A stretch of 35,147 bases of DNA from the IMG/VR virus record IMGVR_UViG_3300033182_000579, positions 1 through 35,147 of that record; one strand, given 5' to 3'. The DNA is from a virus. The position numbers and the translations under genes are program-made. Within the stretch, counting starts at the first letter, position 1. Every line of letters begins with the position of its first letter. The notes under the pieces were generated by a model. It was not told the origin of the DNA, searched no databases, and saw only the letters and a program-made list of their open reading frames with translations. Shown here in pieces: positions 22,817 through 35,147 of the stretch.

Positions 22817-22841
22817 TGTGCGTGAACGTTGTTCACGCATA
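22817..22841 (+). terminator. Strong intergenic hairpin between fibre gene and oxygenase gene
   Basis: GCGTGAAC and GTTCACGC form a perfect 8-bp stem with a GTT loop at 22820-22838. It extends outward by a T-A pair, a G-T wobble and another T-A pair, giving about 11 bp. It begins 11 bases after the fibre stop. No T-run follows, so it may be a weak terminator, a processing site or a translation-controlling hairpin; it ends 9 bases before the next ATG. Confidence 0.55.
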
Positions 22842-22850
22842 AGTATTAAC

Positions 22851-23468
22851 ATGAAAGTAATTAGACCGTTTAGTCCGCCTATATACCTAGGCCAAATTTC
22901 AGACGACTTTTATGAGTTTATAAAACAACACTCAGATAAAGCTCACAAAGAACGAGGTAAGCCTAGAGACCTAGTTGGAAACATTAAAAATCAATTCCAG
23001 ATAAACTTTGACAATGACGATATAATCAAGTTTACAGATTATCTAAAACCTCACTTTGAATATTTTCTTTCTAACATAGAAATAGAAGATCAAATAGAAC
23101 GAAAAATTGAAACTCTAAGTTGGGAAGATCAAATTTGGATTAATTTTCAAGAAGCAGGTGAATTCCAGCCTTTGCACATGCACTCTGGAATTTATTCAAT
23201 GGTAATATATGTAGATGTTCCTGAAGAAATTAAGAAAGAACAAGAAGCAATACATGAATATTCAACTTGGCCAACTGCTGGACAAATACATTTTGTAGGA
23301 ACAGCAGAAGAAACTACTTGGTCTGTAAATAATTTTACATTTTTGCCTGAAAATAAACAAATATTAATTTTCCCTGCAACACAAAGACACTTGGTTTATC
23401 CTTTTAAAAGCGATGTTACAAGGGTAAGCATATCAGCAAATATAACATCGTTAGGAGTTAGAGCATGA
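22851..23468 (+). CDS. Putative 2OG-Fe(II) oxygenase, HxH type (beside halogenase)
   Basis: A 205-residue protein of the 2-oxoglutarate/iron oxygenase superfamily, TIGR02466/PF13759-like. The core contains LHMHSGIYSMVIYVDVP (His109, His111), the strand GQIHFVG, LIFPATQRHLVYPF (distal His180) and TRVSISANI (Arg191, a candidate 2OG-binding residue). The first pair is HxH where most superfamily enzymes have HxD. I chose the ATG at 22851 because the upstream GTG at 22818 would translate through the hairpin. No good ribosome-binding site is visible, which is odd. Its end overlaps the halogenase gene by four bases (ATGA), so the two are probably translated together and may act on the same substrate (inference). 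Confidence 0.75.
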   Translation: MKVIRPFSPPIYLGQISDDFYEFIKQHSDKAHKERGKPRDLVGNIKNQFQINFDNDDIIKFTDYLKPHFEYFLSNIEIEDQIERKIETLSWEDQIWINFQEAGEFQPLHMHSGIYSMVIYVDVPEEIKKEQEAIHEYSTWPTAGQIHFVGTAEETTWSVNNFTFLPENKQILIFPATQRHLVYPFKSDVTRVSISANITSLGVRA

Positions 23469-24976
23469 ACATTACTATTGTTGGCGGCGGAACAGCAGGT
23501 TGGCTTGCTGCATTAATGATAAGCAAAATACAAACATCGCACACAGTTACAATGATAGAATCAGATAAAATTCCTATCATTGGCGCAGGTGAAGGTTCAA
23601 CAGGACACTTAAGAGACATTGTATGTAATAATTTATGGAACTTTGGGTGCGATCAGAAAGAATTTTATGCAACTACAGATGCTACACCAAAGTTAGGAAT
23701 TAAGCATAAAAATTGGACTCCAAAGAAAAATACACATTATTACGGACCAATTGACGGAACAACTACACCAACAGAAATTCCTGACTATCATTTTTGTCAT
23801 GGATTAGCAAAACATCCTGACAAAGTACATACTATAACAGAGCTAGGTACTTATATAGAATATCAAAAATCAACGTTCTTCGCACCTGAATCTACAACTA
23901 GTAACCATGCATACCATTTTGATGCACATAAAGTAGGTCAGTATTTTAAGAAAGTTTGTGGCGAAGATGTTACTACTATAACTACCGAAGTTAATGAAGT
24001 TGTCTTAGACCCGTTTAACGGAAATATTACAAAACTAAAATTAGCAAACGGTCAAGAATTAGAATCAGACTTTTTTATTGATGCAACAGGCTTTGGCCGT
24101 GTGCTAATGAAAAAACTTGATAACGAATGGATTAGTTATGCAAAACATTTGCCTGTAAATTGCGCATTGCCGTTTTTATTACCGTACGATGATGACGAGG
24201 TAATAGAACCAGTAACTACAGCATTAGGTATGGATGCTGGGTGGATGTGGCAAATTCCAACACAACAACGTTGGGGGATGGGATATGTATTTGACAAAAA
24301 TCATATTACACCAGATCAAGCACATGAAGAAATTGAACGTACATTAGGTAAAAAAGTTGACCCTATTAGAGTGTTAGACTTTGATAGCGGAAGATTAAAA
24401 GAACCATGGAAGAAAAATTGTTTAGCAATAGGACTTTGTGCAGCATTTTCTGAACCATTAGAAGCAACAAGTATCCACGCTACTATAATCCAATTATTAT
24501 TCTTTGTATTTGAATATTTAAAAGATGACCCTAAGGCATTTTGTAACAATGGTAACGCATACTTGTATAATAGAAAAATAAACGGCATGTATGATAATTT
24601 TAGAGAGTTTTTAGAAATTCATTATGCAGGTGGAAGAACTGATACAGAATTTTGGAAAATGATGTCGTCAGGAGAAACTCGCAGCGATTTAGTAGCAAAT
24701 GTCATAGATGCTTGTAAAATGCGTATGCCTAACGGTACAGACTTTGAACAAAATTATGGGTATGCAGGATGGTCATTATGGGCATTCGTGTTGGCAGGAA
24801 CCGGACATTTAACACCTGAGATTGCACAAAACGAATTAGACTTCTACGATAGAAATCAAATGGGAAAAGATATATACGATACATATTTTGAAAAATGGAA
24901 AAACATGTCGCAAAGTCATATTACTATGACAGAATTTATCCGTTCGCGCAGAGAGATAAATAATACGGGAGGCTGA
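23465..24976 (+). CDS. FAD-dependent (tryptophan-type) halogenase
   Basis: A 503-residue flavin-dependent halogenase, near full length for the PrnA/RebH family. The N-terminus has the FAD-binding GGGTAGW (residues 7-13), followed by AGEGST near 41. The halogenase signature GWxWxIP is present as GWMWQIP (259-265). Lys76 in TPKLGIKHKNW is the likely counterpart of the catalytic lysine of PrnA. The block CLAIGLCAAFSEPLEATSIH contains Glu333, matching the catalytic glutamate region. The family forms HOCl from reduced FAD, chloride (or bromide) and oxygen, and halogenates an aromatic substrate; a flavin reductase must be supplied elsewhere. Halogenase genes of this type are known in marine T4-like phages, but their substrates are unclear. 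It overlaps the oxygenase upstream by four bases. Confidence 0.88.
   Translation: MNITIVGGGTAGWLAALMISKIQTSHTVTMIESDKIPIIGAGEGSTGHLRDIVCNNLWNFGCDQKEFYATTDATPKLGIKHKNWTPKKNTHYYGPIDGTTTPTEIPDYHFCHGLAKHPDKVHTITELGTYIEYQKSTFFAPESTTSNHAYHFDAHKVGQYFKKVCGEDVTTITTEVNEVVLDPFNGNITKLKLANGQELESDFFIDATGFGRVLMKKLDNEWISYAKHLPVNCALPFLLPYDDDEVIEPVTTALGMDAGWMWQIPTQQRWGMGYVFDKNHITPDQAHEEIERTLGKKVDPIRVLDFDSGRLKEPWKKNCLAIGLCAAFSEPLEATSIHATIIQLLFFVFEYLKDDPKAFCNNGNAYLYNRKINGMYDNFREFLEIHYAGGRTDTEFWKMMSSGETRSDLVANVIDACKMRMPNGTDFEQNYGYAGWSLWAFVLAGTGHLTPEIAQNELDFYDRNQMGKDIYDTYFEKWKNMSQSHITMTEFIRSRREINNTGG
24955..24962 (+). promoter_or_regulatory. T4-type late promoter motif (GATAAATA)
   Basis: GATAAATA lies inside the end of the halogenase gene, 19 bases upstream of the ATG at 24982, with a GGGAGG ribosome-binding site between. 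The position and spacing resemble the motif before the second giant fibre. Confidence 0.5.
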
Positions 24977-24981
24977 AATTT

Positions 24982-25479
24982 ATGGCAATTAATTTTTCTA
25001 ACGGTAAAGAAATAAGTGAACTAGCACTTAATAAGCTATATGCTCAAGGGCATATCATACAATGTGTACAAACTACTAGTACAAGTGCAGTTACGCTAAG
25101 TGCAAACAATCAGTCTGACCTTTTTAGTTTAAGTATTACTACTAGTTCTAATAGTAGTAAAGTACTTGCATACTTGTTCCTAACAGAACGAGCAGACAAG
25201 GGCACTAATAGATGGTCTATTTTCTATAATATGTTAAGATACAATGGACCTGGTTCAGGTAACGGTAGTAACATTATCCACAGCGGATGGAATGGAACCT
25301 TCCGTTTTTATTTAGGCAACTATGACAAGTATTACTTACATAGTCCAGGAGTTGCAGGTACGCATACATATACTGCTAGTGCTAGAACATATAACCAAGG
25401 AACTGGTTATGTTAACTATGGCGGTAACCAAGGTGGAACAGGAATGGGAATTATACGATTAATGGAGGTAGCAGGATAA
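24982..25479 (+). CDS. Small virion-like protein, copy 1 of 3 (165 residues)
   Basis: First of three adjacent paralogues that share a MAI(N/I)F start, a Ser/Thr-rich first third, a central R-x-D-x-G...W block (here RADKGTNRWSIFYNMLRYNG), a G-x-x-G-THTY-like strand and a C-terminal (I/A)-x-R-L-M-E or V-L-H-E ending. Composition is beta-rich and glycine-rich with no signal peptide or catalytic motif. The position after fibre genes suggests a fibre tip, decoration or receptor-binding subunit. The strong GGGAGG site supports the ATG at 24982. I do not recognise a named family. Confidence 0.7.
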   Translation: MAINFSNGKEISELALNKLYAQGHIIQCVQTTSTSAVTLSANNQSDLFSLSITTSSNSSKVLAYLFLTERADKGTNRWSIFYNMLRYNGPGSGNGSNIIHSGWNGTFRFYLGNYDKYYLHSPGVAGTHTYTASARTYNQGTGYVNYGGNQGGTGMGIIRLMEVAG

Positions 25480-25979
25480 TGGCTATTAATTTTGCTACAG
25501 GACAACAATTAGCAGCACAAGGATCAAATCTTGTTGCAAATGGAAATGTTGTTCAAGTAGTTGAAGCTCATCATACTAGTCGTTTAGCAACTAGTAGTAC
25601 TAGTGCTCAAAACTTTTTTACGCAAGCAATTACATTAACAAACGCAAGTAACGGTGTTATTTGGTATTATAATAGTGCGCAACGTTGCGATACAGGCGAC
25701 GGTCCTTGGAGTTTAGGTTATCACGATATGTATAGAACAACTGCTGGTAGTGGCTACGGTACAGGAACGCGAATGTTTTACAGTGGTTATAACGGATTTA
25801 CTGCTAACAACATCATACACTATTCTAAGATGGGCGTAGACTTTCCAGGAATAACTAATCCGCAATATTATATTAGGGTATGGGCATATCCTGGATGTAA
25901 CGTACAGTTTAACAGTCCTAACAACCAAGGTAGTGATGGTGTTGCTGTGTTACGATTAATGGAATTTCAACCATTATAA
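25479..25979 (+). CDS. Small virion-like protein, copy 2 of 3 (166 residues)
   Basis: Second paralogue of the set, starting MAINFATGQQLAAQG and ending VLRLMEFQPL. Its central block reads RCDTGDGPWSLGYHDMYR, aligning with RADKGTNRWSIFYNMLRY in copy 1. The ATG shares one base with the stop of copy 1, and a GGAGG site lies about 10 bases upstream within that gene, so translation is probably coupled. The sequence is clearly related but well diverged, which implies an old duplication. Virion role inferred from neighbours. Confidence 0.7.
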   Translation: MAINFATGQQLAAQGSNLVANGNVVQVVEAHHTSRLATSSTSAQNFFTQAITLTNASNGVIWYYNSAQRCDTGDGPWSLGYHDMYRTTAGSGYGTGTRMFYSGYNGFTANNIIHYSKMGVDFPGITNPQYYIRVWAYPGCNVQFNSPNNQGSDGVAVLRLMEFQPL

Positions 25980-25997
25980 GAAAAGGGTAAATACAAT

Positions 25998-26507
25998 ATG
26001 GCAATTATTTTTAGCAGTGGGTCACAAATCAATAGCGCATATTCGGCAAATAGTGCTAATCCTCGTTTGAATATAGGATATGGCGGAATTGTACAAACTG
26101 TGTACACAACCTATACTAGTAACTTTAGTACCTCAAGTTCTAGTTTTACTAACTGGGCAAGTTTAGCCATTAACATTAGACCAGGTAATAAGGTACTAGC
26201 AGAGTATCATATGAAAACTAGAGAAGATAACGGTAATGGTACTTGGAACTTATCTAGACATAGACTTCGTGTTTCTAAGAACGGTGCATCTGCAACTGAA
26301 TTAATTAATACAGGATTCCATGGAGCACAAGCAAATACCATTTATCAAAACAATATGCACTACTTATGGGATCCAGCAGGTGCTGGAGGTACCCATACAT
26401 TCTATGCTGATGCTAGTGGATGGTCTGGTACTATGTACTTTAATAGATCAGGTGGTAACGGTGACGGAATCGCCTGGCTAGTATTACACGAAATAGCCAA
26501 CGCATAA
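25998..26507 (+). CDS. Small virion-like protein, copy 3 of 3 (169 residues)
   Basis: Third paralogue, starting MAIIFSSGSQINSAYS. The central block is TREDNGNGTWNLSRHRLRV, followed by LWDPAGAGGTHTFYADASG, close to the SPGVAGTHTYTASAR of copy 1. It ends AWLVLHEIANA where the other copies end with RLME. An AAAGGG site lies upstream. It is the last virion-like gene before the tail chaperone. No enzymatic motif is seen. Confidence 0.7.
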   Translation: MAIIFSSGSQINSAYSANSANPRLNIGYGGIVQTVYTTYTSNFSTSSSSFTNWASLAINIRPGNKVLAEYHMKTREDNGNGTWNLSRHRLRVSKNGASATELINTGFHGAQANTIYQNNMHYLWDPAGAGGTHTFYADASGWSGTMYFNRSGGNGDGIAWLVLHEIANA

Positions 26508-26528: not shown

Positions 26529-26945
26529 ATGTTTGGTCAAAAAAGACACATTAACTTTAGTCATGCTCTAGAAGAATTAAGACCTGGAGCAACTTGGAGC
26601 ATGAGACAAAAAAACGATGCTGACGAGTTTGATTGGTCTACATGGGAAATGGACTGGGAAGACAGCAACGAGTTGCCAATTCCAACAGAAGATGAGCTAC
26701 AAGCTGCAATGGAAGTTCTTAGAGAAAACGAACCTATGCGAGTGTTACGTGAAGTTCGAGATACATTTTTACAAGAGTCTGATTGGGTAGTTGCTAGAGC
26801 ATTTGAAACTGGTGAGCCAGTTCCTACCGAATGGGCAGAATATAGACAGTTTTTACGAGATATAACAGATGGTAGTTACACACCTACGTTTGACGACGAA
26901 GGATTTATGTATGTAGATGATATACAAGCAAAAAAACCTAAATAA
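26529..26945 (+). CDS. Phage tail (fibre) assembly chaperone-like protein
   Basis: A 138-residue acidic protein whose C-terminal half reads LREVRDTFLQESDWVVARAF followed by VPTEWAEYRQFLRDI. The pattern RxxRDxxLxxSDW...VPxxWxxYRQxLRDI is characteristic of Phage_tail_APC-type assembly chaperones that sit after tail-fibre genes. The N-terminal half has conserved-looking Trp/Asp-rich segments (FDWSTWEMDWED) and is specific to this phage group. It probably helps fold or assemble one of the fibres just upstream and would not be in the mature virion. An AAGGAG site precedes the ATG, and a terminator follows the stop by about 25 bases. Confidence 0.8.
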   Translation: MFGQKRHINFSHALEELRPGATWSMRQKNDADEFDWSTWEMDWEDSNELPIPTEDELQAAMEVLRENEPMRVLREVRDTFLQESDWVVARAFETGEPVPTEWAEYRQFLRDITDGSYTPTFDDEGFMYVDDIQAKKPK

Positions 26946-27058: not shown

Positions 27059-27289
27059 ATGGATTATATAAAAGAATTTGAAGAATATAGAGATACCGGT
27101 GTTATTAGAAATAAATTTGTAGCCGCGTTCTTAGAAAATAATTTTTATGAGCTGCTTGACGTTCCGGAAAGAGATGCATTTGTACAAATACCAGAACTTC
27201 AGAAATGGTTGCGTGAAAATTTAGATGAAAGTATATGGGGTAATCAAGAAAAAGTTGAAGCTTATCAAGCATCTAAAGGTATATCGTAA
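27059..27289 (+). CDS. Small protein of unknown function, first gene of the oxygenase operon
   Basis: A 76-residue acidic, probably all-helical protein (MDYIKEFEEYRDTG; ELQKWLRENLDESIWG). No signal peptide, membrane segment or metal motif is seen. A TAAGGGT site lies about six bases upstream of the ATG. Its stop overlaps the start of the next oxygenase by one base (TAATG), so the two are probably co-translated. I do not recognise the family. Being the leader gene after a terminator, it marks the start of a new transcription unit. Confidence 0.65.
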   Translation: MDYIKEFEEYRDTGVIRNKFVAAFLENNFYELLDVPERDAFVQIPELQKWLRENLDESIWGNQEKVEAYQASKGIS

Positions 27290-27858
27290 TGGAAATAGAT
27301 CTTCTATTTCCGCAAGTTGTATATAGAGCAACACTACGAGATGCAGAACAATTTAATCAATTAACTGTTAATAAGATTACAGAAGTTGAAAAAAATGTTC
27401 CAAGCGGTGGCGAAAATTGGATTAGTGATGTATACAATACTTGTGGAACATATGAAGTTCATTCAGATGCATATTTTGATAGTCTTACAAAACTAATTAC
27501 TAAACATGTAAATTGGTTTGCTAGAGAATTAACTATTCCTAGCGACATTGAATTTAAACCTAAAGAAAGTTGGGCCAATGTTTACTATAAGCATGGCTAC
27601 CAAGAATTTCATTACCATGCAACACATACATTTAGTGCAGTTTACTATGCTAAGGTAACAAAGAATACAAAAATTATATTTGAGAACCCGTTTACTGATA
27701 TGAACCCTCTACCTACGCGATCAACTGAATATAATGCTGCTACAAAAACATATTATCCAAATGCAGGAGAATTGTTCATCTTTAGAAGTCATTTAAAGCA
27801 TGCTATTCCGCCGCACTTAGATGATGATAACCGAATAACTCTAGCATTTAATTTTTAA
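27289..27858 (+). CDS. Putative 2OG-Fe(II) oxygenase, HxH type (TIGR02466-like)
   Basis: A 189-residue protein matching the TIGR02466/PF13759 putative 2OG-Fe(II) oxygenase pattern over its whole length. It has ESWANVYYKHGYQEFHYHAT (His108 and His110), SAVYYAKV, IIFENP, GELFIFRSHLKHAIPPH (distal His171) and RITLAFNF (Arg182, candidate for binding the 2OG carboxylate). Length is normal for the family, so it is probably complete and active. The expected reaction class is Fe(II)- and 2-oxoglutarate-dependent hydroxylation with release of succinate and CO2; the substrate is not known. The TAATG junction with the gene before implies coupling. Confidence 0.8.
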   Translation: MEIDLLFPQVVYRATLRDAEQFNQLTVNKITEVEKNVPSGGENWISDVYNTCGTYEVHSDAYFDSLTKLITKHVNWFARELTIPSDIEFKPKESWANVYYKHGYQEFHYHATHTFSAVYYAKVTKNTKIIFENPFTDMNPLPTRSTEYNAATKTYYPNAGELFIFRSHLKHAIPPHLDDDNRITLAFNF

Positions 27859-27867
27859 GGAATACTT

Positions 27868-28470
27868 ATGCAAACACCGATAATTACTGACGAAAAACCA
27901 AATCCAGTACAACAATTATATCCTACTACAATAGTATTAGACTACATGGATGAGTTGGATTTGGATACTCTTAAATTATTGCCGCACTGGGTAAGAAGCC
28001 AAGGCTGGCATGATAGTGGAGTTAATTTTTTAAACTGTACTAGAAGCGGTGAACAGTATGAAGTTCCTGAAGGTAAAATATTATGGGATTATACTATGGC
28101 TCCTGGGATGGAAGAGATACAGGAAGCAGTACAGAAAAGATTAAATCTATGGGTTAATGCTGTAACAGGGCAAGAATGTTATGAAGCAAGTGCATATTAC
28201 TGGCATTTTACATTTTATAAAGAACACGGCTATCAGTTACCGCACATACATCAATGGGAGTGGACAGCCATTGTCGGTTTGCGTAATAATGGCACTGTTA
28301 TTATACAAGATCCAAGAGGTATAGCAGTAGGACAAGGTAATCACATGGTCCATAAAGAGATAATTGTTAACCCTGGACAAATTCTTATCATACCTGGATA
28401 TATAACTCATTCCTCAGTTCCTTGTTATCATCCAGATGGTAGAGATATCTTAGTAATTAATGGAAACTAA
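27868..28470 (+). CDS. Putative 2OG-Fe(II) oxygenase, HxH type
   Basis: A 200-residue oxygenase-like protein. The core reads FYKEHGYQLPHIHQWEWTAI (His126, His128), a strand with TVIIQDPRG, then PGQILIIPGYITHSSVPCY (distal His181) and GRDILVIN (Arg192). This matches the double-stranded beta-helix order of 2OG-Fe(II) oxygenases with HxH in place of HxD. The first 100 residues are specific to this protein and may form the substrate lid. An AAGGA site lies well placed upstream of the ATG. The substrate is unknown. Confidence 0.7.
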   Translation: MQTPIITDEKPNPVQQLYPTTIVLDYMDELDLDTLKLLPHWVRSQGWHDSGVNFLNCTRSGEQYEVPEGKILWDYTMAPGMEEIQEAVQKRLNLWVNAVTGQECYEASAYYWHFTFYKEHGYQLPHIHQWEWTAIVGLRNNGTVIIQDPRGIAVGQGNHMVHKEIIVNPGQILIIPGYITHSSVPCYHPDGRDILVINGN

Positions 28471-28471
28471 T

Positions 28472-28987
28472 ATGGATATCTATGATTATATAAAGGTATA
28501 TGACTTTAATATAGAAGATAACATTTTATCTGAAATAAAAAATGCTAATTGGATTAATTCAATTGAAAATGTAGCACATGCATTAGATGGAAAGTATTCT
28601 TTTTATGAATTGAACGATTATAAAGATGATATTTATGGTAATTTATGGGGGCCGTTACTTACAGGTCAAATGCAGATTATTAATGAATATTTAAAATCGC
28701 ACCCTAAATTAGAGTTAAGCGGAGGAACAACTTTTGTTTTTAAAAAATACAAAGATGGTGATTGCACTTACGATACAACTGGATGGAATCCTGGCGAGCC
28801 AACGACATTAAGAGTTATAATGAGTTTAACTGAGTACGAAGGCGGCGAAGTTTTATTTAACAATGACTATAAGGTTAAATTAGGAAAAAACCAAGTATTA
28901 GTGTTCCCTAGTGCATTTATGTATCGTTACGAGCAGTTACCTGTTACTAGCGGTATTAAGTATACTGTAGAAAGTGGTATTGTATAA
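28472..28987 (+). CDS. Degenerate 2OG-Fe(II) oxygenase-like protein lacking the metal ligands
   Basis: A 171-residue relative of the oxygenase at 33882-34427: both start (M)xxxDYIKV-like, share a (K)YKDGD/KYEEDD segment, a GG(E/D)(V/L)xF strand, KNQ(V/A)(L/I)VFPS and a PVT-x-G-x-(K/R) end. Aligning the two, the HxD of the relative (THVDD) becomes TYDTT here, and the distal His (YPHQ) becomes Tyr (YRYE). The terminal Arg becomes Lys. All three iron ligands are therefore missing while the fold-defining segments persist, so it is probably a non-catalytic pseudo-enzyme, perhaps a partner or regulator of an active paralogue. I chose the ATG at 28472, which has a GGAA site six bases away, over the one at 28460. 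Confidence 0.7.
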   Translation: MDIYDYIKVYDFNIEDNILSEIKNANWINSIENVAHALDGKYSFYELNDYKDDIYGNLWGPLLTGQMQIINEYLKSHPKLELSGGTTFVFKKYKDGDCTYDTTGWNPGEPTTLRVIMSLTEYEGGEVLFNNDYKVKLGKNQVLVFPSAFMYRYEQLPVTSGIKYTVESGIV

Positions 28988-29571
28988 TGTTTACTTATAA
29001 GATTATTAGAGGTTTGCTTGATAAAGATTTGTGTAAAGATATGACAGACTTTATGTGGAAGCAACATACTCAAGGTGGATTTTATTATGATGCGCAGTGT
29101 AAAACAAGCCCTGCATTTTTAAATTTGTTTAGTTCTGTTAATGTAAACTTAGCAGAAAAATTATCAAAAGAACTTAACTTTGAAGTGTTTCCAACGTATA
29201 ATCATTGTAGACTTTACTTTCCAGGAGAAATATTAGAACCCCATAAAGATAAACTTCAATGCGAAATTGGCACGTCTATTACACTTGGGTATGAAGGTGA
29301 AAAGCCATGGCCTATCTACATATATCAAGATAATGAAATTGTAGAAGCAAATTTAGAAATTGGCGATGCATTGGTTTACAAAGGGTTTGATACTTTGCAC
29401 TGGCGTAACAAATATGTTGAAGGTAATTGGCAAACACAGGCATTTTTATTTTATAACACAACACCTAGATTTGATGATCCTATTATAGGTGATTTACGTA
29501 ATGTAAAGTTAGTAACGGAGTTCGATACATGGCGAGAATCGCGTCAGAATACACAGACAACAAAGACTTAG
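28987..29571 (+). CDS. Putative 2OG-Fe(II) oxygenase, HxD type
   Basis: A 194-residue protein with LYFPGEILEPHKDKL (His86, Asp88), a GTSITLGYEG strand, LEIGDALVYKGFDTLHWR (distal His138) and a QAFLFYNTT strand. This is the order expected for a prolyl-4-hydroxylase-like 2OG-Fe(II) oxygenase. The basic residue that normally pairs with 2-oxoglutarate is not obvious; Arg140 is close to the distal His. Its ATG shares one base with the preceding stop. Its last 14 codons overlap the next gene by 43 bases, the largest overlap in this operon. The substrate is unknown. Confidence 0.75.
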   Translation: MFTYKIIRGLLDKDLCKDMTDFMWKQHTQGGFYYDAQCKTSPAFLNLFSSVNVNLAEKLSKELNFEVFPTYNHCRLYFPGEILEPHKDKLQCEIGTSITLGYEGEKPWPIYIYQDNEIVEANLEIGDALVYKGFDTLHWRNKYVEGNWQTQAFLFYNTTPRFDDPIIGDLRNVKLVTEFDTWRESRQNTQTTKT

Positions 29572-30137
29572 AAGCAGATCCAAATTTAATTTTTGTGTTT
29601 GATGACATCCTCCCTGAGTGGTTAACTATTTGGGGTGAGGAATCAATGGTACACTTTGAATGGGTTTACGACAACAGATCATATCCCGGTGGCGAACCAT
29701 TCTTTGGTAAAATGTTTTTAGATGAACATACAAATCGGACATTACCGCCAATAGTTGATGTTGTCCTTGCAGGTTTTGAAAGTTACATAGATCGTAAAGA
29801 AGACTTTGACTTTATGATTGAAAAATGTGTTAAGATACTTGCTAATGCACAATTACCTTGTACTCCCGGCGAGCCGCATGTAGACACCTTTAAATCTAAT
29901 CATTGGACATTAGTGTATCATTTAAACGACAGCACAGGTGATACACGCTTTTATAAAAGCCAAGAAAATCTTACTGTAGTAAAGTCTGTACCATTTAAAA
30001 GAGGAAGAATGATATTATTCCCTAGTTTTTATAATCACGAAGGTTGTGTTCCAGAGAAAGGATTGCGTATTAGCATAGGAATGCAACTATTAGCAGAGTC
30101 AAGATTAACACCTATTAGGAATATAGAAACACTATGA
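29529..30137 (+). CDS. Putative 2OG-Fe(II) oxygenase, HxD type (paralogue of 31922)
   Basis: A 202-residue enzyme-like protein with LIFVFDDILPEW at the start, EPHVDTFKSNHWTLVYHLN (His117, Asp119), GDTRFYKS, FKRGRMILFPSFYNHEG (distal His170) and KGLRISIGMQL (Arg180). All canonical facial-triad and 2OG-binding positions are present. It is closely similar in plan to the product of 31922-32545, which has the same N-terminal (I)FVFDxIxPxW segment, so the two are in-operon paralogues. The ATG has a GGAG site eight bases upstream inside the previous gene. The residue order matches dioxygenases that hydroxylate small molecules or peptides; the substrate is unknown. Confidence 0.82.
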   Translation: MARIASEYTDNKDLEADPNLIFVFDDILPEWLTIWGEESMVHFEWVYDNRSYPGGEPFFGKMFLDEHTNRTLPPIVDVVLAGFESYIDRKEDFDFMIEKCVKILANAQLPCTPGEPHVDTFKSNHWTLVYHLNDSTGDTRFYKSQENLTVVKSVPFKRGRMILFPSFYNHEGCVPEKGLRISIGMQLLAESRLTPIRNIETL

Positions 30138-30703
30138 CCATAAACCCTTTTAGAAATTTATTTTATAAAGAAAAATTTCCTTTTGATAAGGAAGTGCTTA
30201 TGCCACTCCTTCTAAAAGCAATTGAAGTAACCCCGCAACGTGCAGATTACGATTATCCTACAACTGATGAACGCATACAACCTCATACATGGTCACAATT
30301 AAATGACTATATGGTTTTTATTAAAGAAACAACAGATAAAATTTGGAAAGATTGGGAGCTGGCAAATGATATTGAACGCTATGTTACCAGTAGTCATATT
30401 AATTGCCAATTAAAAGGACAGTCAGTAAGAGAACATGCGCACCCTGGTGTAGATATTGTAGCAGTTGGATATGTATATGCTTCTCCTGGCACCGGCAATA
30501 TACAATTTAGAGATCCTATGGAATATTGTTGGCAGAATCTTCCTAAAGATACGCATCCTAGAGATAATTGGAGATCTATAGAAATTGAAACTGATGATGT
30601 TTTATTTTTTCCAGGATTTTTAAATCATAAAACAGAAATAAATCAAACAGATGACCCTCGTTGGACTATTAATTCTATGATTAGATCTAGGTTGTTTACG
30701 TAA
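30134..30703 (+). CDS. Putative 2OG-Fe(II) oxygenase, HxH type
   Basis: A 189-residue TIGR02466-like protein. The motif run is QSVREHAHPGVDIVAVGYVY (His101, His103), NIQFRDPMEY, TDDVLFFPGFLNHKTEIN (distal His165) and DPRWTINSMI (Arg176). HxH replaces HxD as in four other genes of this window. It overlaps the previous gene by four bases (ATGA) and its stop directly abuts the ATG of the methyltransferase, so the three are in one coupled translation unit. The N-terminal 80 residues are specific to it. The substrate is unknown. Confidence 0.75.
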   Translation: MTINPFRNLFYKEKFPFDKEVLMPLLLKAIEVTPQRADYDYPTTDERIQPHTWSQLNDYMVFIKETTDKIWKDWELANDIERYVTSSHINCQLKGQSVREHAHPGVDIVAVGYVYASPGTGNIQFRDPMEYCWQNLPKDTHPRDNWRSIEIETDDVLFFPGFLNHKTEINQTDDPRWTINSMIRSRLFT

Positions 30704-31315
30704 ATGAATGGTGTTGATGAAAATGCTTGGAATTGGTTTTATATGCTGCATCCAAATGGTGGACCTTGGGATACAGTTGATTTTAGCCCCGATCAACACA
30801 TAATTGATTTTGTTAAGCATTATAACATTCCTATAGGATCTAAAATTCTAGATTCAGGGTGTGCCGATGGTAGAAACAGTAAGTACTTAATAGAACAAGG
30901 ATTTGAAGTTACAGGTATTGATATTTCAACAGAAGTTACCAAACGAACATCAAAAAGACTTCCTAATGGAACATTTATTGCATCTAATGTTTTAAAATTT
31001 AATACAGAAGATGTATATGACTTCATAATAGACGCAGGAGCAATGCATGTAAACAACCCTTCGTTCTATAGACAGATAATTGAAAAATATAATTCATTAT
31101 TAAGTAAGAATGGAATAATGTTTATTAGAGTATTCAACAATGATAAAATTGATAATATCTTTAATATCGACTTTAATATGCCAGTATTTGGCATGTCTGA
31201 AGAAGACTTTTTAGAATTTATTAACGGTTACTTTAAAGTAGAAACTAAGATATTTGACAAAGAATACGGAGCACACGGTAAAGGTTGTAACTACTTTTAT
31301 TTACGAAAAATATGA
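30704..31315 (+). CDS. SAM-dependent methyltransferase (class I)
   Basis: A 203-residue class I methyltransferase. Motif I is KILDSGCADGRNSKYL (47-62), followed by FEVTGIDIS (68-75, the acidic residue that binds the ribose of S-adenosylmethionine), a TFIASNVLKF strand (90-99) and motif IV YDFIIDAGAMHV (105-116). The overall order resembles the small TehB/UbiE-type enzymes acting on small molecules. It is the only non-oxygenase enzyme embedded in the middle of the oxygenase run, abutting the gene before and overlapping the next by four bases (ATGA). That suggests methylation of the same product that the oxygenases modify; this is inference. Confidence 0.85.
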   Translation: MNGVDENAWNWFYMLHPNGGPWDTVDFSPDQHIIDFVKHYNIPIGSKILDSGCADGRNSKYLIEQGFEVTGIDISTEVTKRTSKRLPNGTFIASNVLKFNTEDVYDFIIDAGAMHVNNPSFYRQIIEKYNSLLSKNGIMFIRVFNNDKIDNIFNIDFNMPVFGMSEEDFLEFINGYFKVETKIFDKEYGAHGKGCNYFYLRKI

Positions 31316-31917
31316 AAACTATAAGATACGATAATAAAATGATGTACGGTATATATCAAAGTGATTATATTGTAGAGCATTTAGAAGAAATACGAGAAAG
31401 TTGCGAACAAGCTGTTGAACGAATTAATAATCTAATAAACACTGGTGAAGAACAAACAGATGTAACTTGGTTCTATCAGCGATATAATATTTTTTCAGTT
31501 CGTACAGGAGACATACATTTTTATAATATCTTTAAAGAATTAGTTGAAGCAATTAGTACTTACTTTAAAGATATGCAAGTTGAAGACGACGGACAAGTTT
31601 GGATGCAGTCCTGGCTTAATCATCATAAACAAAATGAGGTACTGGGTAAACACGATCATGCTAGTCCTGTACACGGATATATTTGTTTAGACCCAAAGAC
31701 AACAAAAACAGTATTCTACGATAATACTGTAGAATCAAATGTACTTTATGAATTAAAAAATGTGCCGGGACAAATTTATATTGGCCCAGGAAAAAGAGAT
31801 CATGCGGTAATTAATACTGATGATTATGACGGATATCGACTAACAATGGGATTTGACATTGATGACGATTTCACGTATAATTTAGGTTTAATACCAATAA
31901 TACTAGATAGGAAATAA
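31312..31917 (+). CDS. Putative 2OG-Fe(II) oxygenase, HxH type
   Basis: A 201-residue protein with VWMQSWLNHHKQNEVLGKHD, then HDHASPVHGYICLDP (His114 and His116 form HxH), a TVFYDNT strand, VPGQIYIGPGKRDHAVIN (distal His164) and YRLTMGFDID (Arg176). It is of the same putative-oxygenase type as 27289 and 30134, with an extra N-terminal helical part (residues 1-90). It starts inside the ATGA overlap with the methyltransferase gene. The substrate is unknown. The extra His/Asp around the HxH pair (HDH) makes the exact ligand set uncertain. Confidence 0.72.
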   Translation: MKTIRYDNKMMYGIYQSDYIVEHLEEIRESCEQAVERINNLINTGEEQTDVTWFYQRYNIFSVRTGDIHFYNIFKELVEAISTYFKDMQVEDDGQVWMQSWLNHHKQNEVLGKHDHASPVHGYICLDPKTTKTVFYDNTVESNVLYELKNVPGQIYIGPGKRDHAVINTDDYDGYRLTMGFDIDDDFTYNLGLIPIILDRK

Positions 31918-31921
31918 AATT

Positions 31922-32545
31922 ATGCAACACCCTTCATACATACCATTATCAAAAGTATCGTCTGAAAAGTATCCGGATTATAATAGCGATAACATTTTTG
32001 TATTTGATGAGATTTTTCCAAAATGGATGGAAGATGATCACGAGTATCAAATGCTTTTAGAAAAATGGGAATACGGTCATTTAACTGACAGTTCGGTTCC
32101 AGATCGTAAACCATTCTTTGGTAGACAGTTGTTTCATAAGCAATTAAATTATAGCGAACAGTTCACACCTGTAGTGAACAATATTATATCGGCTCTTGCT
32201 AGAGGTATATGTCCTATGATTGACAGTGAAGGAGCATGGGAAGATTTGTATCGTGTTTCTTTTAATGGACAATTAACTGGAATGGAAGCAGGACTACATT
32301 GTGATACCCAGGAAAGAAATCACCTTTGGACAGCAGTGTACTTTGTTAATGAAGCAGACGGCGACTTACAATTTTATGTTAGCAAAGACGATCAAACACC
32401 TACTGACAAAGTAGAATTTAAGAAAGGTCGATTTGTTGTATTTCCAAGTGGCTATGCACATAATGCATTAGCACCAGAAAAGTCTGATTGGAGAATAACT
32501 ATTGCAATAATGTTTGAGTTTAATACTGAGCGACAATATAAATAA
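31922..32545 (+). CDS. Putative 2OG-Fe(II) oxygenase, HxD type (paralogue of 29529)
   Basis: A 207-residue oxygenase with NIFVFDEIFPKW at residues 24-35, EAGLHCDTQERNHLWTAVYF (His126, Asp128), GDLQFYVS, FKKGRFVVFPSGYAHNAL (distal His180) and DWRITIAIMF (Arg191). All expected catalytic positions are intact. The spacing and the motif following HxD (NHLWTAVYxxN versus NHWTLVYHLN) show it is a paralogue of 29529-30137, separated from it by three genes. An AGGAAAT site lies eight bases upstream of the ATG. Its stop shares a base with the next ATG. Confidence 0.82.
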   Translation: MQHPSYIPLSKVSSEKYPDYNSDNIFVFDEIFPKWMEDDHEYQMLLEKWEYGHLTDSSVPDRKPFFGRQLFHKQLNYSEQFTPVVNNIISALARGICPMIDSEGAWEDLYRVSFNGQLTGMEAGLHCDTQERNHLWTAVYFVNEADGDLQFYVSKDDQTPTDKVEFKKGRFVVFPSGYAHNALAPEKSDWRITIAIMFEFNTERQYK

Positions 32546-33090
32546 TGGCAGTAGCGGTATACGAAAATTTCTTAGATGACGAATCATTGGAAGAAGTACT
32601 TCGTTACTTTAATGAAGTACAACACTCTCCATCTTGGATTAATAATTCAGACTTTTTTCCATCGTATCTAAATAAAAATCCTGGTCCTCTTTTAGTAACA
32701 ATGGTGCCGCAAAATATGACTGACACTATAACAGAATACTATATTGATAAGGGCATTTTTAAGAAAAAACCTAAATTTATTGACGTACTTCTTTACATTG
32801 GGCATCCTGGCAGTGCTATAAGTTGGCACACTGACGGAGCATCTGATGTATATTCTACGCCTCGTGCTGCATCAAGTGTATACTTAACTGAAGATTGGCA
32901 AGATGAATGGGGCGGATATTTTCTGTATAAGAAAGATAACGAATTAAAAGCAATAGAGCCAACATTTAATAAAGCAATAGTTTTAGAAGAAGATGTAGAG
33001 CATTGCACAACAGTTCTTAGTATGCAATCTAAATTACGAAAAAGTATGCAAATATTCTTTGACAAAGAGGCACTATATGCAATGATATAA
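32545..33090 (+). CDS. Putative 2OG-Fe(II) oxygenase, HxD type (prolyl-4-hydroxylase-like)
   Basis: A 181-residue protein with VLLYIGHPGSAISWHTDGAS (His95, Asp97), ASSVYLTEDW, GGYFLYKKDN, AIVLEEDVEHCTTVLS (distal His153) and LRKSMQIFF (Arg165). The WGG(Y/E)-(F/L) strand and the HxD...H...R order are those of the prolyl-4-hydroxylase-like branch of the superfamily. It starts at a TAATG junction. An exact TATAAATA precedes the ATG but is too close to serve it. A fragment of a hydrolase-like frame begins within its last codons in another frame. Confidence 0.78.
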   Translation: MAVAVYENFLDDESLEEVLRYFNEVQHSPSWINNSDFFPSYLNKNPGPLLVTMVPQNMTDTITEYYIDKGIFKKKPKFIDVLLYIGHPGSAISWHTDGASDVYSTPRAASSVYLTEDWQDEWGGYFLYKKDNELKAIEPTFNKAIVLEEDVEHCTTVLSMQSKLRKSMQIFFDKEALYAMI

Positions 33091-33218
33091 ACTTTTTAAA
33101 TCAAGATTTTATTTCAATAGGTATGACACAGGAACCTGCATTAGATGGAATACATTTTGGAAAATTAGGGCATCAAAAATTTGCAGAACAAATTTATCAG
33201 GAACTTAACAATGACTAA
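33063..33218 (+). pseudogene. C-terminal remnant of an SGNH/GDSL-type hydrolase
   Basis: A frame open from 33063 to a TAA at 33216-33218 encodes 51 residues with no usable start at its beginning. Its second half contains DGIHFGKLGHQKFAEQIYQ. This is the last conserved block of SGNH hydrolases: D-x-x-H gives the catalytic Asp and His, and GH..(F/V)AE.I is the helix after it. The upstream parts with the catalytic Ser, Gly and Asn are absent, so it looks like the 3' scrap of a deleted gene. An ATG at 33123 could express 31 residues, but no plausible ribosome-binding site precedes it. It overlaps the next gene's start by eight bases. Confidence 0.6.
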
Positions 33219-33891
33219 AATTAAATGGTGTATATATAAAAATGATCCAATTGGGGAGGCTTGGAAAGAACTAGCATTATTTCCGCCAGAACGATTAACA
33301 GCGTTTGATTTAAGAAGATCGACATATAAGAATTGCCCTGCATTTAAAGATGCAGTTGAAGATTACTTTGTTATACGATCACCAGTAGATCTTGACTTTT
33401 CGTGGGATGAAGGAGCAGCGCATTTAGATGTACGAAAAGGTGGTGGCTTAATCCAAGAAAGGTTAGATGATCAAGGCGAAGGAGATCCAAGATTAATTAC
33501 ACTGCTATTCCAATATATTTTTGTGGCAGAGAAAGATACAGTAATGGAAGTATTTTCTCCATCATTTAGTGAACAACCCCTTCCATGGCATATTATACCT
33601 GGTCGCTATAACATACATAAATGGGTTAGACCCGTTGATGTAACCTTTGAATTTAAGAGTAAATCAGGCAGGTATAAAGTTCGCAGAGGAGAACCGCTAT
33701 TGTACATTAAATTCCATACTTCCGAGTTATTTGACAAGTTTGAGTTTGAACAAGTTGAAATGGATGGTAAAATTTACGAACAAGTAGCAGCATGTACTTC
33801 GTTAAAAGATTACATGAAAGGCTTATCACTTTCTAAAATTCATGACATGTTTGATAAGAGTATAATAAAGAAGTACTTTAAATGGTTTTAA
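33211..33891 (+). CDS. Protein of unknown function in the oxygenase operon (226 residues)
   Basis: I do not recognise this protein with confidence. The central part has WHIIPGRYNIHKWVRPVDV, the strand VTFEFKSKSGRYKVRRGEPL and LLYIKFHTSELF, so a beta-rich sandwich with a GEP turn is likely; this loosely recalls DUF6065-type proteins, but I could not test that. The C-terminal 50 residues are helical and basic (DMFDKSIIKKYFKWF). The ATG at 33211 has an AGGA site at 33199-33202; an upstream TTG at 33181 is less plausible. It lies between two 2OG oxygenases and overlaps the next by ten bases, so it shares their operon. Confidence 0.7.
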   Translation: MTKIKWCIYKNDPIGEAWKELALFPPERLTAFDLRRSTYKNCPAFKDAVEDYFVIRSPVDLDFSWDEGAAHLDVRKGGGLIQERLDDQGEGDPRLITLLFQYIFVAEKDTVMEVFSPSFSEQPLPWHIIPGRYNIHKWVRPVDVTFEFKSKSGRYKVRRGEPLLYIKFHTSELFDKFEFEQVEMDGKIYEQVAACTSLKDYMKGLSLSKIHDMFDKSIIKKYFKWF

Positions 33892-34427
33892 CAGACTTTA
33901 TTAAAGTAGTTGACTTACCTGATTTAGATGTTATCCTTAAACAGTGCATGTCTCTAGAAAGTGAAATGTCTCCTGCGATTACTGCTGGAGGTTATACAGA
34001 TTACCGCAGTTGTAAAGAATATGTATTAATACCTAACGCATACGAAGTCTACGATGCCGATACTAAACTTTTATTTGACAATGTAGAAAACGTGTTCCAA
34101 TATGTTATCAATGAGTACATTACTGCATTTCCAGAAGTTGAATCATCGATATTAAAACAACATTCAGGATTTCAAATATTAAAGTATGAAGAAGACGACA
34201 ATTATCAAACTCATGTCGACGACTTTAAACAAGCGTTTAGACGTTTAAGCATTAGTATTGTTCTTAATGATAATTTTAAAGGCGGAGATTTAAAATTCTT
34301 TAACAAAGAACAATACACTGTAAGAAAAAATCAAGCAATAGTTTTTCCATCGTCATGGCAATATCCGCACCAAGTTACTCCTGTTACGGAAGGAACTCGA
34401 TGGGCTATTGTTATTTGGACTGTTTAA
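33882..34427 (+). CDS. Putative 2OG-Fe(II) oxygenase, HxD type (prolyl-4-hydroxylase-like)
   Basis: A 181-residue oxygenase with FQILKYEEDDNYQTHVDDFK (His111, Asp113), RLSISIVLND, FKGGDLKFF, RKNQAIVFPSSWQYPHQVTP (distal His163) and GTRWAIVIW (Arg173). All canonical metal and 2OG-binding positions are intact, and the plan matches phage-type prolyl-4-hydroxylase-like proteins. It is the intact relative of the ligand-less protein at 28472-28987. It overlaps the preceding gene by ten bases. Its stop overlaps the stop of the convergent cupin gene. Confidence 0.85.
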   Translation: MVLTDFIKVVDLPDLDVILKQCMSLESEMSPAITAGGYTDYRSCKEYVLIPNAYEVYDADTKLLFDNVENVFQYVINEYITAFPEVESSILKQHSGFQILKYEEDDNYQTHVDDFKQAFRRLSISIVLNDNFKGGDLKFFNKEQYTVRKNQAIVFPSSWQYPHQVTPVTEGTRWAIVIWTV

Positions 34428-34771
34428 GACGAAAGGAAACAGGCATCGTCTTTATCACTTTTATTACTAACTTGCGTAATTGATGCATTATCTTCTAATG
34501 CTTCTAGGCCAACTGGCATATGAGAAGATATATGAAACACTACACCTTCGTTGATTTCCTTTTCGTAAAGTTTGCCGTCGGTTACATCAATCCATGTAAC
34601 CTTAAAAGATCCTGCATTGACAAACCAACTTTTGTTAACTTCTTTATGAAAGGTTATTGGAGTTTTATTTCCTGCATGAGCAAATACCATAATTTTTGAA
34701 TAATACCACTCGGTATCAGCCCATACTAAATCATAACCATATTTTGTTTCTATAACATTACTATTATTCAT
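34424..34771 (-). CDS. Small cupin-domain protein
   Basis: A 115-residue single-domain cupin on the minus strand. It shows TPITFHKEVNKSWFVNAGSF (His42, Lys43, then W-F-V-x-x-G-x-F), a KLYEKEINEGVVFHISSHMP strand pair (His80, His84) and GLEALEDNASITQVSN, ending in a DKDDA-like tail. This matches small cupins related to the cupin half of type II mannose-6-phosphate isomerases, which bind a metal or a sugar. Several marine T4-like phages carry such proteins with unclear function. The ATG has a TAGGTAG site. It starts six bases after the Nudix gene, so both are in one minus-strand unit, and it converges on the oxygenase operon. Confidence 0.75.
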   Translation of the reverse strand: MNNSNVIETKYGYDLVWADTEWYYSKIMVFAHAGNKTPITFHKEVNKSWFVNAGSFKVTWIDVTDGKLYEKEINEGVVFHISSHMPVGLEALEDNASITQVSNKSDKDDACFLSS

Positions 34772-34777
34772 AACTAC

Positions 34778-35147
34778 CTACGATATTAAATCTATTAATT
34801 GAAATACTGTTTTTAACTTGTTTAAGTTAGTTTTTTTATTTAAAGTATTTTGTAGTCCATAGTGTAAAGGTTTGGGCCACTTGCTAAATGATACCCAGGC
34901 ATATCCATCATGCTCGTCATTTAATATGGGCATAAATTCTTCCTTAACTACACATAAGTATGTGTGGAAGAGAAACTGCGCATCATTAGATACAAATGTT
35001 TCTAACGGTAAAGTTTTCTTAATTTCAACATCGCCAATTTCCTCAGAAATTTCACGCTTTAGGCCTTCCCACGGAGTTTCACCTTCTTCGTTGCCGCCTC
35101 CAACAAGCCCCCACAATTCTTTTTGCTTACTACCTGTGCGGTGTAAG
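34778..35147 (-). CDS. Nudix hydrolase (partial, 5' end beyond the right edge)
   Basis: Minus-strand gene whose N-terminus lies outside the window; the frame is open to the edge (LHRTGSKQKELWGLVGGGNE). It contains the full Nudix box G-x5-E-x7-RE-x-x-EE-x-G as GGGNEEGETPWEGLKREISE followed by EIGD. Nudix enzymes cleave nucleoside diphosphates linked to another group, such as oxidised nucleotides, ADP-ribose, NAD or capped RNA. The specificity is not visible here. The C-terminal half ends in a helical KKTNLNKLKTVFQLIDLIS. Visible length is about 122 residues, close to complete for a MutT-type protein of about 140. Confidence 0.85.
   Translation of the reverse strand, partial: LHRTGSKQKELWGLVGGGNEEGETPWEGLKREISEEIGDVEIKKTLPLETFVSNDAQFLFHTYLCVVKEEFMPILNDEHDGYAWVSFSKWPKPLHYGLQNTLNKKTNLNKLKTVFQLIDLIS

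Follow-up and report, generated by a model that had tools for sequence, protein, structure and literature searches.

A run of ten 2OG-Fe(II) oxygenase-fold genes behind fibre-type genes in an IMG/VR virus record

Few accessory genes of ocean phages are as numerous as those for 2OG-Fe(II) oxygenases: each genome of 16 cultured relatives of the virus described here has 8–23 of them. Ten such genes are reported in phage S-CREM1 (PMC9964418). In the cultured relatives many copies are scattered in the genome besides a run. The run described here follows the distal tail-fibre genes, a slot that in its relatives precedes the neck genes. In Syn9 (Kyanoviridae) the order is fibre assembly, gp40, two halogenases, gp43, gp44 and gp45–54. 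The Syn10 run is headed by CPUG_00131, which is VirX1, a biochemically characterised viral halogenase that accepts a broad range of substrates in an active site that is large and accessible (PMC8407142). No reported substrate was found in the literature on ocean-phage 2OG oxygenases.

The window analysed here is the whole 35,147 nt stretch of IMG/VR record IMGVR_UViG_3300033182_000579, from a marine T4-like virus. Ten oxygenase-fold genes follow one another at positions 27289–34427, interspersed with one methyltransferase, one uncharacterised protein (g11) and a GDSL-hydrolase remnant; oxygenase no. 11 (g0) is outside the run and overlaps the halogenase. The arrangement has precedent: sequenced ocean phages already carry a similar halogenase-containing block.

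Gene content of the run

The features are as follows, all on the plus strand.

22818–23468, +, g0, PF13759-type oxygenase (PF13759 3e-15; phrog_81 3e-30; H120-x-H122, H191, R202)
23465–24976, +, flavin-dependent tryptophan-halogenase-type enzyme (PF04820 1e-92; PDB matches PrnA, RebH, VirX1)
24982–25479, +, f1, small fibre-type paralogue of f2 and f3
25479–25979, +, f2, small fibre-type paralogue of f1 and f3
25998–26507, +, f3, small fibre-type paralogue of f1 and f2
26529–26945, +, tail-fibre assembly chaperone, Phage_tail_APC (PF16778 4e-9; phrog tail fiber assembly 9e-12)
27059–27289, +, 76-aa protein without significant family, overlapping g1 by 1 base
27289–27858, +, g1, PF13759 oxygenase (PF13759 7e-16; PDB 2rg4/3bvc; H108-x-H110, H171, R182)
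27868–28470, +, g2, divergent PF13759-like oxygenase (iterated g0 profile 1e-14; H126-x-H128, H181, R192)
28460–28987, +, g3, predicted P4H-like pseudo-oxygenase (phrog_61 5e-12; ligands lost)
28987–29571, +, g4, phrog_2954 ("ferrochelatase") family, predicted prolyl-hydroxylase-like 2OG oxygenase fold (H86-x-D88, H138)
29529–30137, +, g5, PF13640 oxygenase (PF13640 7e-7; phrog_274 2e-23; H117-x-D119, H170, R180)
30134–30703, +, g6, PF13759 oxygenase (PF13759 2e-11; H101-x-H103, H165, R176)
30704–31315, +, g7, class I SAM-dependent methyltransferase (PF13649 3e-11)
31312–31917, +, g8, PF13759-like oxygenase (phrog_2696 5e-42; phrog_81 2e-8; H114-x-H116, H164, R176)
31922–32545, +, g9, PF13640 oxygenase (PF13640 9e-7; H126-x-D128, H180, R191)
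32545–33090, +, g10, PF13640 oxygenase (PF13640 1e-7; H95-x-D97, H153, R165)
33087–33215, +, apparent C-terminal end of a GDSL-type hydrolase (frame translation; PF14606 weak)
33211–33891, +, g11, distant relative of the Syn9 gp43/phrog_7084 partner family (phrog_17480 4e-17; phrog_7084 6e-6)
33882–34427, +, g12, PF13640 P4H-like oxygenase (PF13640 7e-18; H111-x-D113, H163, R173)

The run genes are near-contiguous, with overlaps at the majority of junctions. ATGA junctions are present at g5/g6, g7/g8 and g0/halogenase (a 4-base overlap), and there are 1-base overlaps at position 27289, g3/g4 and g9/g10. Longer overlaps are found at g2/g3 (11 bases), g4/g5 (43) and g11/g12 (10). The remaining junctions are gaps of 9, 0 and 4 bases, and a single 120-base gap contains the hydrolase scrap. 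The PF14606 match of this scrap is weak (E 0.13) but falls at positions 148–175 of the 178 in the profile; the scrap reads as a genuine C-terminal end. A preliminary description of the stretch had listed these ORFs, which were recovered as described. Its methyltransferase and hydrolase scrap stand, but of the "two unknown proteins" only one, g11, lies within the run.

Superfamily membership, by profile or double-stranded beta-helix fold, was found for all ten run genes and g0 with Pfam, PHROGs and iterated profiles, and with AF2 and Foldseek for g4; this agrees with the ten genes plus an eleventh by the halogenase initially proposed. Matches above the curated Pfam cut-off are those of g1 and g6 (PF13759) and g5, g9, g10 and g12 (PF13640). 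Below it are g2, g3 and g8, which are placed by PHROGs or iterated profiles; g2 is without a Pfam match, and a search for a near relative found none. The phrog_274 label of g5 and g9, DNA endonuclease V/denV, is not supported: Pfam assigns g5, g9 and Syn9 gp51/gp53 to PF13640 and finds no endonuclease.

The run genes are mutually diverged, as had been noted. They are too short and diverged for reliable alignment in one tree, a difficulty likewise met in PMC9599517. Single-sequence IMG/VR scans with g9 and g4 gave no match, and relatives were reached only with alignment queries; a nucleotide search against cultured phages and tblastn with g9 against the same phages also gave none. An origin of the run by tandem duplication was rejected except for the paralogues g5 and g9 (32% identity) and perhaps g3/g12 (29%); the best matches of g4, g6, g8, g9, g10 and g12 are genes of other phages.

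Metal ligands, g3 and g4

The HxD...H triad is complete in g4, g5, g9, g10 and g12. Five of the eleven genes (g0, g1, g2, g6 and g8) have H-x-H...H instead, a family-wide variant also seen in PDB 2rg4/3bvc. The C-terminal Arg that binds 2OG is present in g0, g1, g2, g5, g6, g8, g9, g10 and g12; in g4 the usual position holds no Arg. Nine of the ten run genes have a complete HxD...H or H-x-H...H set and are possibly active, and one appears to be a ligand-less pseudo-oxygenase. In this gene, g3, the proximal H and D are missing, the distal H is replaced by Y155 and the Arg by K167, so that Lys167 stands without metal ligands. These columns are conserved in 97% of g3's relatives, and g3 is predicted to be catalytically dead. 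It might serve as a subunit for regulation or substrate docking, or be a copy in decay.

No Pfam model matches g4. Its ligands, H86-x-D88 and H138, correspond to invariant columns of alignment A3. The AF2 model (pLDDT 88.8) was compared with the PDB by Foldseek, and the best 50 matches are all 2OG/Fe(II) enzymes; the first is the P4H 4j25 (4.5e-9) and the second a P. putida P4H complexed with EF-Tu. None of the 51 members of phrog_2954 matches any Pfam family at 0.01, and neither a chelatase profile nor a chelatase fold was found. The family annotated as ferrochelatase in cyanophage records is therefore predicted, from the structural model, to be a prolyl-hydroxylase-like 2OG oxygenase. This changes the reading of pelagiphage and seasonal-virus results (PMC9599517, PMC11561400), where the co-occurring pair would be two oxygenases and not an oxygenase and a haem enzyme. 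A profile link from g12 to g4 was discarded as it was created by phrog_3531-type fusion proteins, and the fold comparison was used instead.

These matches bear on two other functions. A role in DNA repair or base modification, AlkB- or Tet-like, is very improbable: the g4 profile has a weak match to a Tet-like dioxygenase (E 0.024) and repair was suggested in older literature (PMC2984593), but the best structural matches are prolyl hydroxylases, the cassette is without a replication or repair gene, and PMC9146016 notes oxygenase copies that lie away from repair genes. Reprogramming of the host, proposed for cyanophages (PMC3037559), is unlikely. The enzymes would hydroxylate host proteins (EF-Tu, ribosomal proteins, regulators), in keeping with the EF-Tu complex matched by g4, or would just consume 2-oxoglutarate and shift nitrogen and energy status. 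The consumption of one metabolite needs no ten diverged enzymes, however, and the position behind fibre genes and the halogenase partner are left unexplained. A further point against it is that g3 is still an open frame despite its apparent loss of catalysis.

Linkage to fibre genes and possible functions

About 2.3 kb separate the end of the halogenase gene from the run. The halogenase looks intact by sequence, with a PF04820 match spanning 450 aa and GxGxxG-type and WxWxIP motifs seen by eye in the translation. Fibre-type genes, as first described, and fibre-chaperone genes lie directly upstream of the run; relatives of f1 in contigs L176 and L178 are also followed by an APC-type chaperone. 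The window fibres have 10–15% Gly and no collagen-type GXY repeats. They are not Gly-rich, unlike the fibres of other phages with runs, a point against tailoring of fibres. The motif ATAAATA, the cyanophage late-promoter core, is rarer in the window than expected (5 sites vs 19), and its four plus-strand sites lie just upstream of the genes at 347, 8217 and 24982 and of g10.

Small marine phages with a different backbone have runs of up to 11 oxygenases just behind Gly-rich fibre-type genes. After dereplication at 60% identity, fibre-type genes precede the run in 14 of 17 loci. Gly-rich fibre-type genes make up 25 of 56 upstream genes vs 2 of 185 other genes (Fisher p = 2e-16, genes treated as independent). 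The oxygenase run far exceeds chance expectation, yet it is not unique: so many genes side by side had seemed exceptional, but Syn9 and Syn10 have 9–10 and contig L080 has 11. What is new is the pattern of runs behind fibre-type genes in distinct phage backbones.

A further component is the phrog_7084-type partner (gp43 in Syn9), which has an oxygenase gene next to it in 65 of the 80 loci that were retrieved independently. Its fold gives weak dUTPase/dCTP-deaminase-like matches (E 3e-3, TM 0.35) and no function is assigned. The window's candidate, g11 (ATG at 33211; TTG at 33181 possible), is at the distal end of the run and is missed by the partner profile built here. Cyanophages and small phages of different backbone have the same guild of fibre, fibre chaperone, halogenase, partner and oxygenase run, which lends indirect support to the dedicated modification system proposed earlier. 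The products belong to the superfamily, and related phages have runs plus scattered copies, not scattered single copies only.

This recurrence also bears on whether the fibre-to-neck gap is simply a hyperplastic region that gathers unrelated morons, the oxygenases having separate functions. Gene order is modular (between the g6 and g8 counterparts is a methyltransferase in the window and another oxygenase in L090, where g11- and g4-type genes are on the other strand), the hydrolase remnant shows turnover, and copies are scattered in cultured genomes. The content is nevertheless strongly biased to one superfamily with halogenase and partner across distinct backbones, and the partner is regularly oxygenase-adjacent; accretion of this kind is quite improbable.

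The cassette may chemically decorate the phage's own receptor-binding fibres or the cell surface. The best-supported mechanism, possible though short of probable, is that the phage's own distal fibre proteins are tailored by hydroxylation and halogenation. The run genes would be expressed late, together with the fibre genes. Each oxygenase would hydroxylate a different side chain (e.g., Pro, Asp/Asn, Leu, Lys) of the distal fibre or adhesin proteins during folding, the halogenase would act on exposed Trp/Tyr, and the methyltransferase would add a further mark. The outcome would be a chemically diversified receptor-binding tip, and the gain, loss or inactivation of a single oxygenase gene could then shift recognition. 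The best PDB neighbours of g4 and g12, by structure or sequence, are protein prolyl hydroxylases (g12 matches a P4H at 2e-4), and the accessible site and broad scope of VirX1 fit the requirement of a polypeptide substrate. A permissive insertion hot spot, or late transcription in common, could also account for the adjacency to fibre genes. In cultured relatives many of the oxygenase genes are located elsewhere in the genome, some near DNA-repair genes (PMC2984593), which also counts against this mechanism. Virion proteomes (PMC9964418, PMC9602691) report no fibre hydroxylation; the papers do not say it was sought.

The enzymes might instead modify a host-surface glycan or lipid, or a secondary metabolite made during infection, e.g., as a superinfection block or receptor change. 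In S-SSM7 and Mosig the fibre-to-neck slot is occupied by carbamoyltransferases, aminotransferases, nucleotidyltransferases, isomerases and methyltransferases; Nol-type carbamoyltransferases adjoin the runs in L046 and L086; and in S-SCSM2R oxygenases are mixed with glycosyltransferases and a radical SAM enzyme. Such sugar-nucleotide and carbamoyltransferase genes point to glycans, and VirX1 accepts free small aromatics for halogenation in vitro (PMC8407142). Surface or small-molecule tailoring is still rather unlikely, as the window's cassette is without glycosyltransferase or sugar-nucleotide genes, the longest run (L080) has only fibre-type and structural-looking genes on its flanks, and the nearest relatives of g4 and g12 with a solved structure have protein substrates.

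Returning to fibre tailoring, a wider and more doubtful proposal is that marine phages of different lineages share an adhesin-tailoring system, in which diverged prolyl-hydroxylase-like oxygenases, halogenase, gp43-type partner and dead paralogues modify the receptor-binding fibres post-translationally. If so, the evolution of host recognition would proceed through turnover of these genes in addition to fibre mutation. The fibre linkage across backbones replaces a vague "auxiliary metabolism" label with a hypothesis testable on culturable phages, and VirX1, until now a biocatalysis tool, belongs to this cassette.

Comparison with related contigs and cultured phages

The window has the at least eight adjacent oxygenases downstream of fibre/chaperone genes that delimit the cassette, and a flavin halogenase is present. 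Jointly with the fibre-tailoring mechanism, it is tentatively assigned to the fibre-linked halogenase/2OG-Fe(II)-oxygenase cassettes of marine T4-like phages and small marine phages of other backbone.

The nearest relatives are IMG/VR contigs L090 and L091, in which g8, g9, g10, g12 and NUDIX have the same order at 37–60% identity (g8 48% and g10 37% to L090, g9 49% to L091). They differ in the strand of the g11-type and g4-type genes, which is the opposite one, and have no methyltransferase in the available stretch, the left part of the run being beyond it. L091 continues into proteins resembling baseplate, neck and sheath. Contigs L080, L046 and L065 resemble the window in their 7–11 adjacent oxygenases, but have a different backbone and Gly-rich fibres. 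L080 (11 oxygenases), L046 (9 and, like the window, a halogenase) and others are behind Gly-rich fibre-type and MAHFA genes.

In Pelagibacter phages HTVC008M and Mosig the region from tail fibres to neck has 5–6 oxygenase genes side by side, one of g4 type among them. Their runs are shorter than the window's, and that of HTVC008M is on the opposite strand with its halogenase by the terminase, although this halogenase has an oxygenase neighbour, as with g0. S-CREM1 ORF67–ORF80 (OP535465) resemble the window's cassette and comprise a collagen-like protein, halogenase, gp43-type protein and nine adjacent 2OG oxygenases (ORF72 and ORF74 are counterparts of g6 and g8, the latter at 39% identity), but include a JmjC member, are without a methyltransferase and come from a phage of Synechococcus.

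Syn9 gp41–gp54 and Syn10 CPUG_00119–00132 lie, like the window's run, behind fibre-assembly genes; they comprise halogenases, a gp43-type partner and 9–10 head-to-tail oxygenases. The Syn9 counterparts are gp54 (g4), gp45 (g6), gp47 (g8), gp50 (g12) and gp51/53 (g5/g9). Order and subfamily mix differ and identities are only 21–35%. What sets the window apart from these two phages is the presence of three small fibre paralogues and a chaperone after the halogenase and before the run, of a methyltransferase, an apparent GDSL remnant and a putatively dead oxygenase, and the distal position of g11.

Anatomy and neighbourhood of the run

The region 27289–34427 of the window, which is the entire 35,147-base IMG/VR fragment, contains twelve genes (g1–g12), all forward. 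Ten of these have an oxygenase fold (g1–g6, g8–g10 and g12), as the preliminary description had claimed in reporting ten oxygenase-superfamily genes head to tail. Gene g11 is the only other member that is not a methyltransferase, and no function was assigned to it. The majority of junctions overlap or are at most 9 bases apart. The only larger gap, of 120 bases, is 5' of g11 and is occupied by the last 40 or so codons of a GDSL-type hydrolase, hence the "hydrolase scrap" of that description. The eleventh oxygenase that it placed beside the halogenase is g0, which has a 4-base overlap with the halogenase gene. The original observation is real and well described. Fibre-type genes come first, then g0 and the halogenase, then three small paralogues of fibre type, an APC-type chaperone and the run; a cupin and then a NUDIX gene follow on the other strand. 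This anatomy argues for enzymes that act jointly near fibre synthesis.

Features of the window
347–8185 and 8217–20252: two giant ORFs of 2612 and 4011 aa, probably tail fibres; their repetitive N-termini are related
22818–23468, +: g0, oxygenase
23465–24976, +: halogenase
24982–26507: three tandem small fibre-type paralogues, chaperone next
28987–29571, +: g4, phrog_2954, T4-GC 615, labelled "ferrochelatase"
g7, +: methyltransferase (PF13649, 3e-11)
33087–33215: C-terminal GDSL-type hydrolase remnant, between g10 and g11
34424–34771, −: cysteine-dioxygenase-like cupin (phrog_7851, 8e-12)
34778–35146, −: NUDIX gene, 58–60% identical in L090/L091

The nearest relatives, contigs L090 and L091, share g8-g9-g10-g12 and the NUDIX gene with the window at 37–60% identity, but L090 has another oxygenase where the window has the methyltransferase. 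This difference, the hydrolase remnant and a dead oxygenase (g3) represent gene turnover. Beyond the run, L091 encodes proteins that resemble baseplate, neck and sheath, as judged by eye. Because the gene order is shared and L091 extends to neck-like proteins, the window run is placed in a fibre-to-neck slot. Pelagibacter phage Mosig and T4-like cyanophages have tail proteins similar to those of the window, whose right-hand part showed no nucleotide match in a search among cultured phages. No tRNA was found in the window. The window has fewer copies of the late-promoter-like ATAAATA than expected (5 vs 19), and those on the + strand, at 313, 8188, 24956 and 32538, are each shortly 5' of a gene.

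Active sites and misleading labels

Six run genes pass Pfam cut-offs, and g2, g3 and g8 are placed in the superfamily via PHROGs or iterated profiles. A ligand audit shows an HxD...H set in g4, g5, g9, g10 and g12 and an H-x-H...H set in g0, g1, g2, g6 and g8 (H-x-H members are at 22818–23468, 27289–28470, 30134–30703 and 31312–31917). H-x-H is the rule among the PF13759-type relatives collected here and is present in both solved structures of the family. It may represent a putative three-histidine metal site in these predicted oxygenases. Every ligand is lost in g3 (28460–28987), a pseudo-oxygenase and paralogue of g12 with an intact reading frame.

Relatives of g4 are present in 152 phage records, and most of the annotated ones among those listed carry the "ferrochelatase" label. 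Gene g4 has no Pfam match, nor has any of 51 g4-family sequences at 0.01, and H86, D88 and H138 are invariant in the alignment of these 51. The AF2 model (pLDDT 88.8, pTM 0.84) gives 653 Foldseek matches below 1e-3 in the PDB, with a P. putida prolyl hydroxylase as the top match; the best 50 of the 653 comprise only 2OG/Fe(II)-type enzymes and uncharacterised proteins with the same fold. Because of the modelled fold, the invariant H/D/H and the lack of Pfam matches in all 51, the label is very probably wrong, and phrog_2954 is a predicted 2OG-Fe(II) oxygenase family. PMC9599517 and PMC11561400, in which the family is handled as a haem or iron enzyme, should be read again in this light.

Similarly, the phrog_274 label "DNA endonuclease V" is borne by PF13640 oxygenases at 29529–30137 and 31922–32545 and by gp51/gp53 of cyanophage Syn9 (L103). 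True denV is missing from the cyanophage genomes reviewed in PMC2984593.

Fibre association and candidate substrates

In L080, L046 and many more loci with another backbone, 4–11 oxygenases are found 3' of Gly-rich fibre-type and MAHFA (phrog_7759) genes. Loci were dereplicated at 60% identity and those with at least two upstream genes counted; in 14 of 17, at least one of the four nearest upstream genes is of this kind. Counted by gene, the frequency is 25/56 upstream vs 2/185 elsewhere (p = 2e-16). We infer that the Gly-rich genes encode fibres from their composition, their position and the precedent of Gly-rich adhesins known from phages.

The run enzymes may tailor adhesin side chains, a candidate substrate consistent with the prolyl-hydroxylase-like folds and the fibre chaperone beside fibre genes. 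The halogenase is homologous to an open-pocket enzyme, which would fit side-chain tailoring. The strongest rival is tailoring of a glycan, given that the fibre-to-neck slot of relatives holds sugar-nucleotide, carbamoyl and methyl transferases.

Comparison with known phages

The characterised viral halogenase VirX1 (PDB 6qgm) matches Syn10 CPUG_00131 across all 530 residues (E 0); therefore a characterised iodinating halogenase heads the Syn10 oxygenase run.

L194:9997–11589: VirX1 gene in Syn10, directly 5' of gp43 and the oxygenase run; "hypothetical" in GenBank

The gp43/phrog_7084 partner family (L050:6146–6907, L114–L193) is abundant among viral contigs, has a weakly dUTPase-like fold and shows no Pfam match among members tested. 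Of 80 loci fetched by the partner itself, 65 have it next to an oxygenase; its kinship with g11 is distant only. In another phage (L176/L178:85–1431), a pair similar to the window's small fibre-type paralogues recurs with a chaperone, and the gp43-type gene there is without an oxygenase neighbour.

Profile searches (phrog_81, 61, 274, 2954) of 16 cultured Kyanoviridae found 8–23 oxygenase genes each and longest runs of 2–8, which are lower bounds since PF08007/DUF6445-type members, e.g., Syn9 gp49, can escape the profiles. Syn9 gp45, 47, 48 and 50–54 match these profiles and gp49 is JmjC_2 (1e-16); gp46, the sole gp45–gp54 member without assignment, has HxD plus a later H. S-CREM1 has nine adjacent oxygenases by annotation. 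Counts in the literature are in line with this: ten in S-CREM1 (PMC9964418) and 24 in S-SCSM1 (PMC9602691), the older norm, as cited in PMC3037559, being one to five. Runs of at least three are present in 43 of 80 IMG/VR loci fetched via the g4 family, the longest being 11 (L080). These eleven adjacent genes (L080:4409–10280) are on a small non-T4-like marine phage contig.

HTVC008M, Mosig and S-SSM7 use the same fibre-to-neck slot, and in Syn9, Syn10 and S-CREM1 fibre genes, halogenase, gp43 and run form one series. The window sequence itself is no new kind, and its run is a further case of an arrangement already in GenBank genomes, e.g., Syn9, where it is masked by the labels "denV", "ferrochelatase", "minor coat protein" and "hypothetical". 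The useful novelty lies in the association with fibres across lineages and in the corrected labels.
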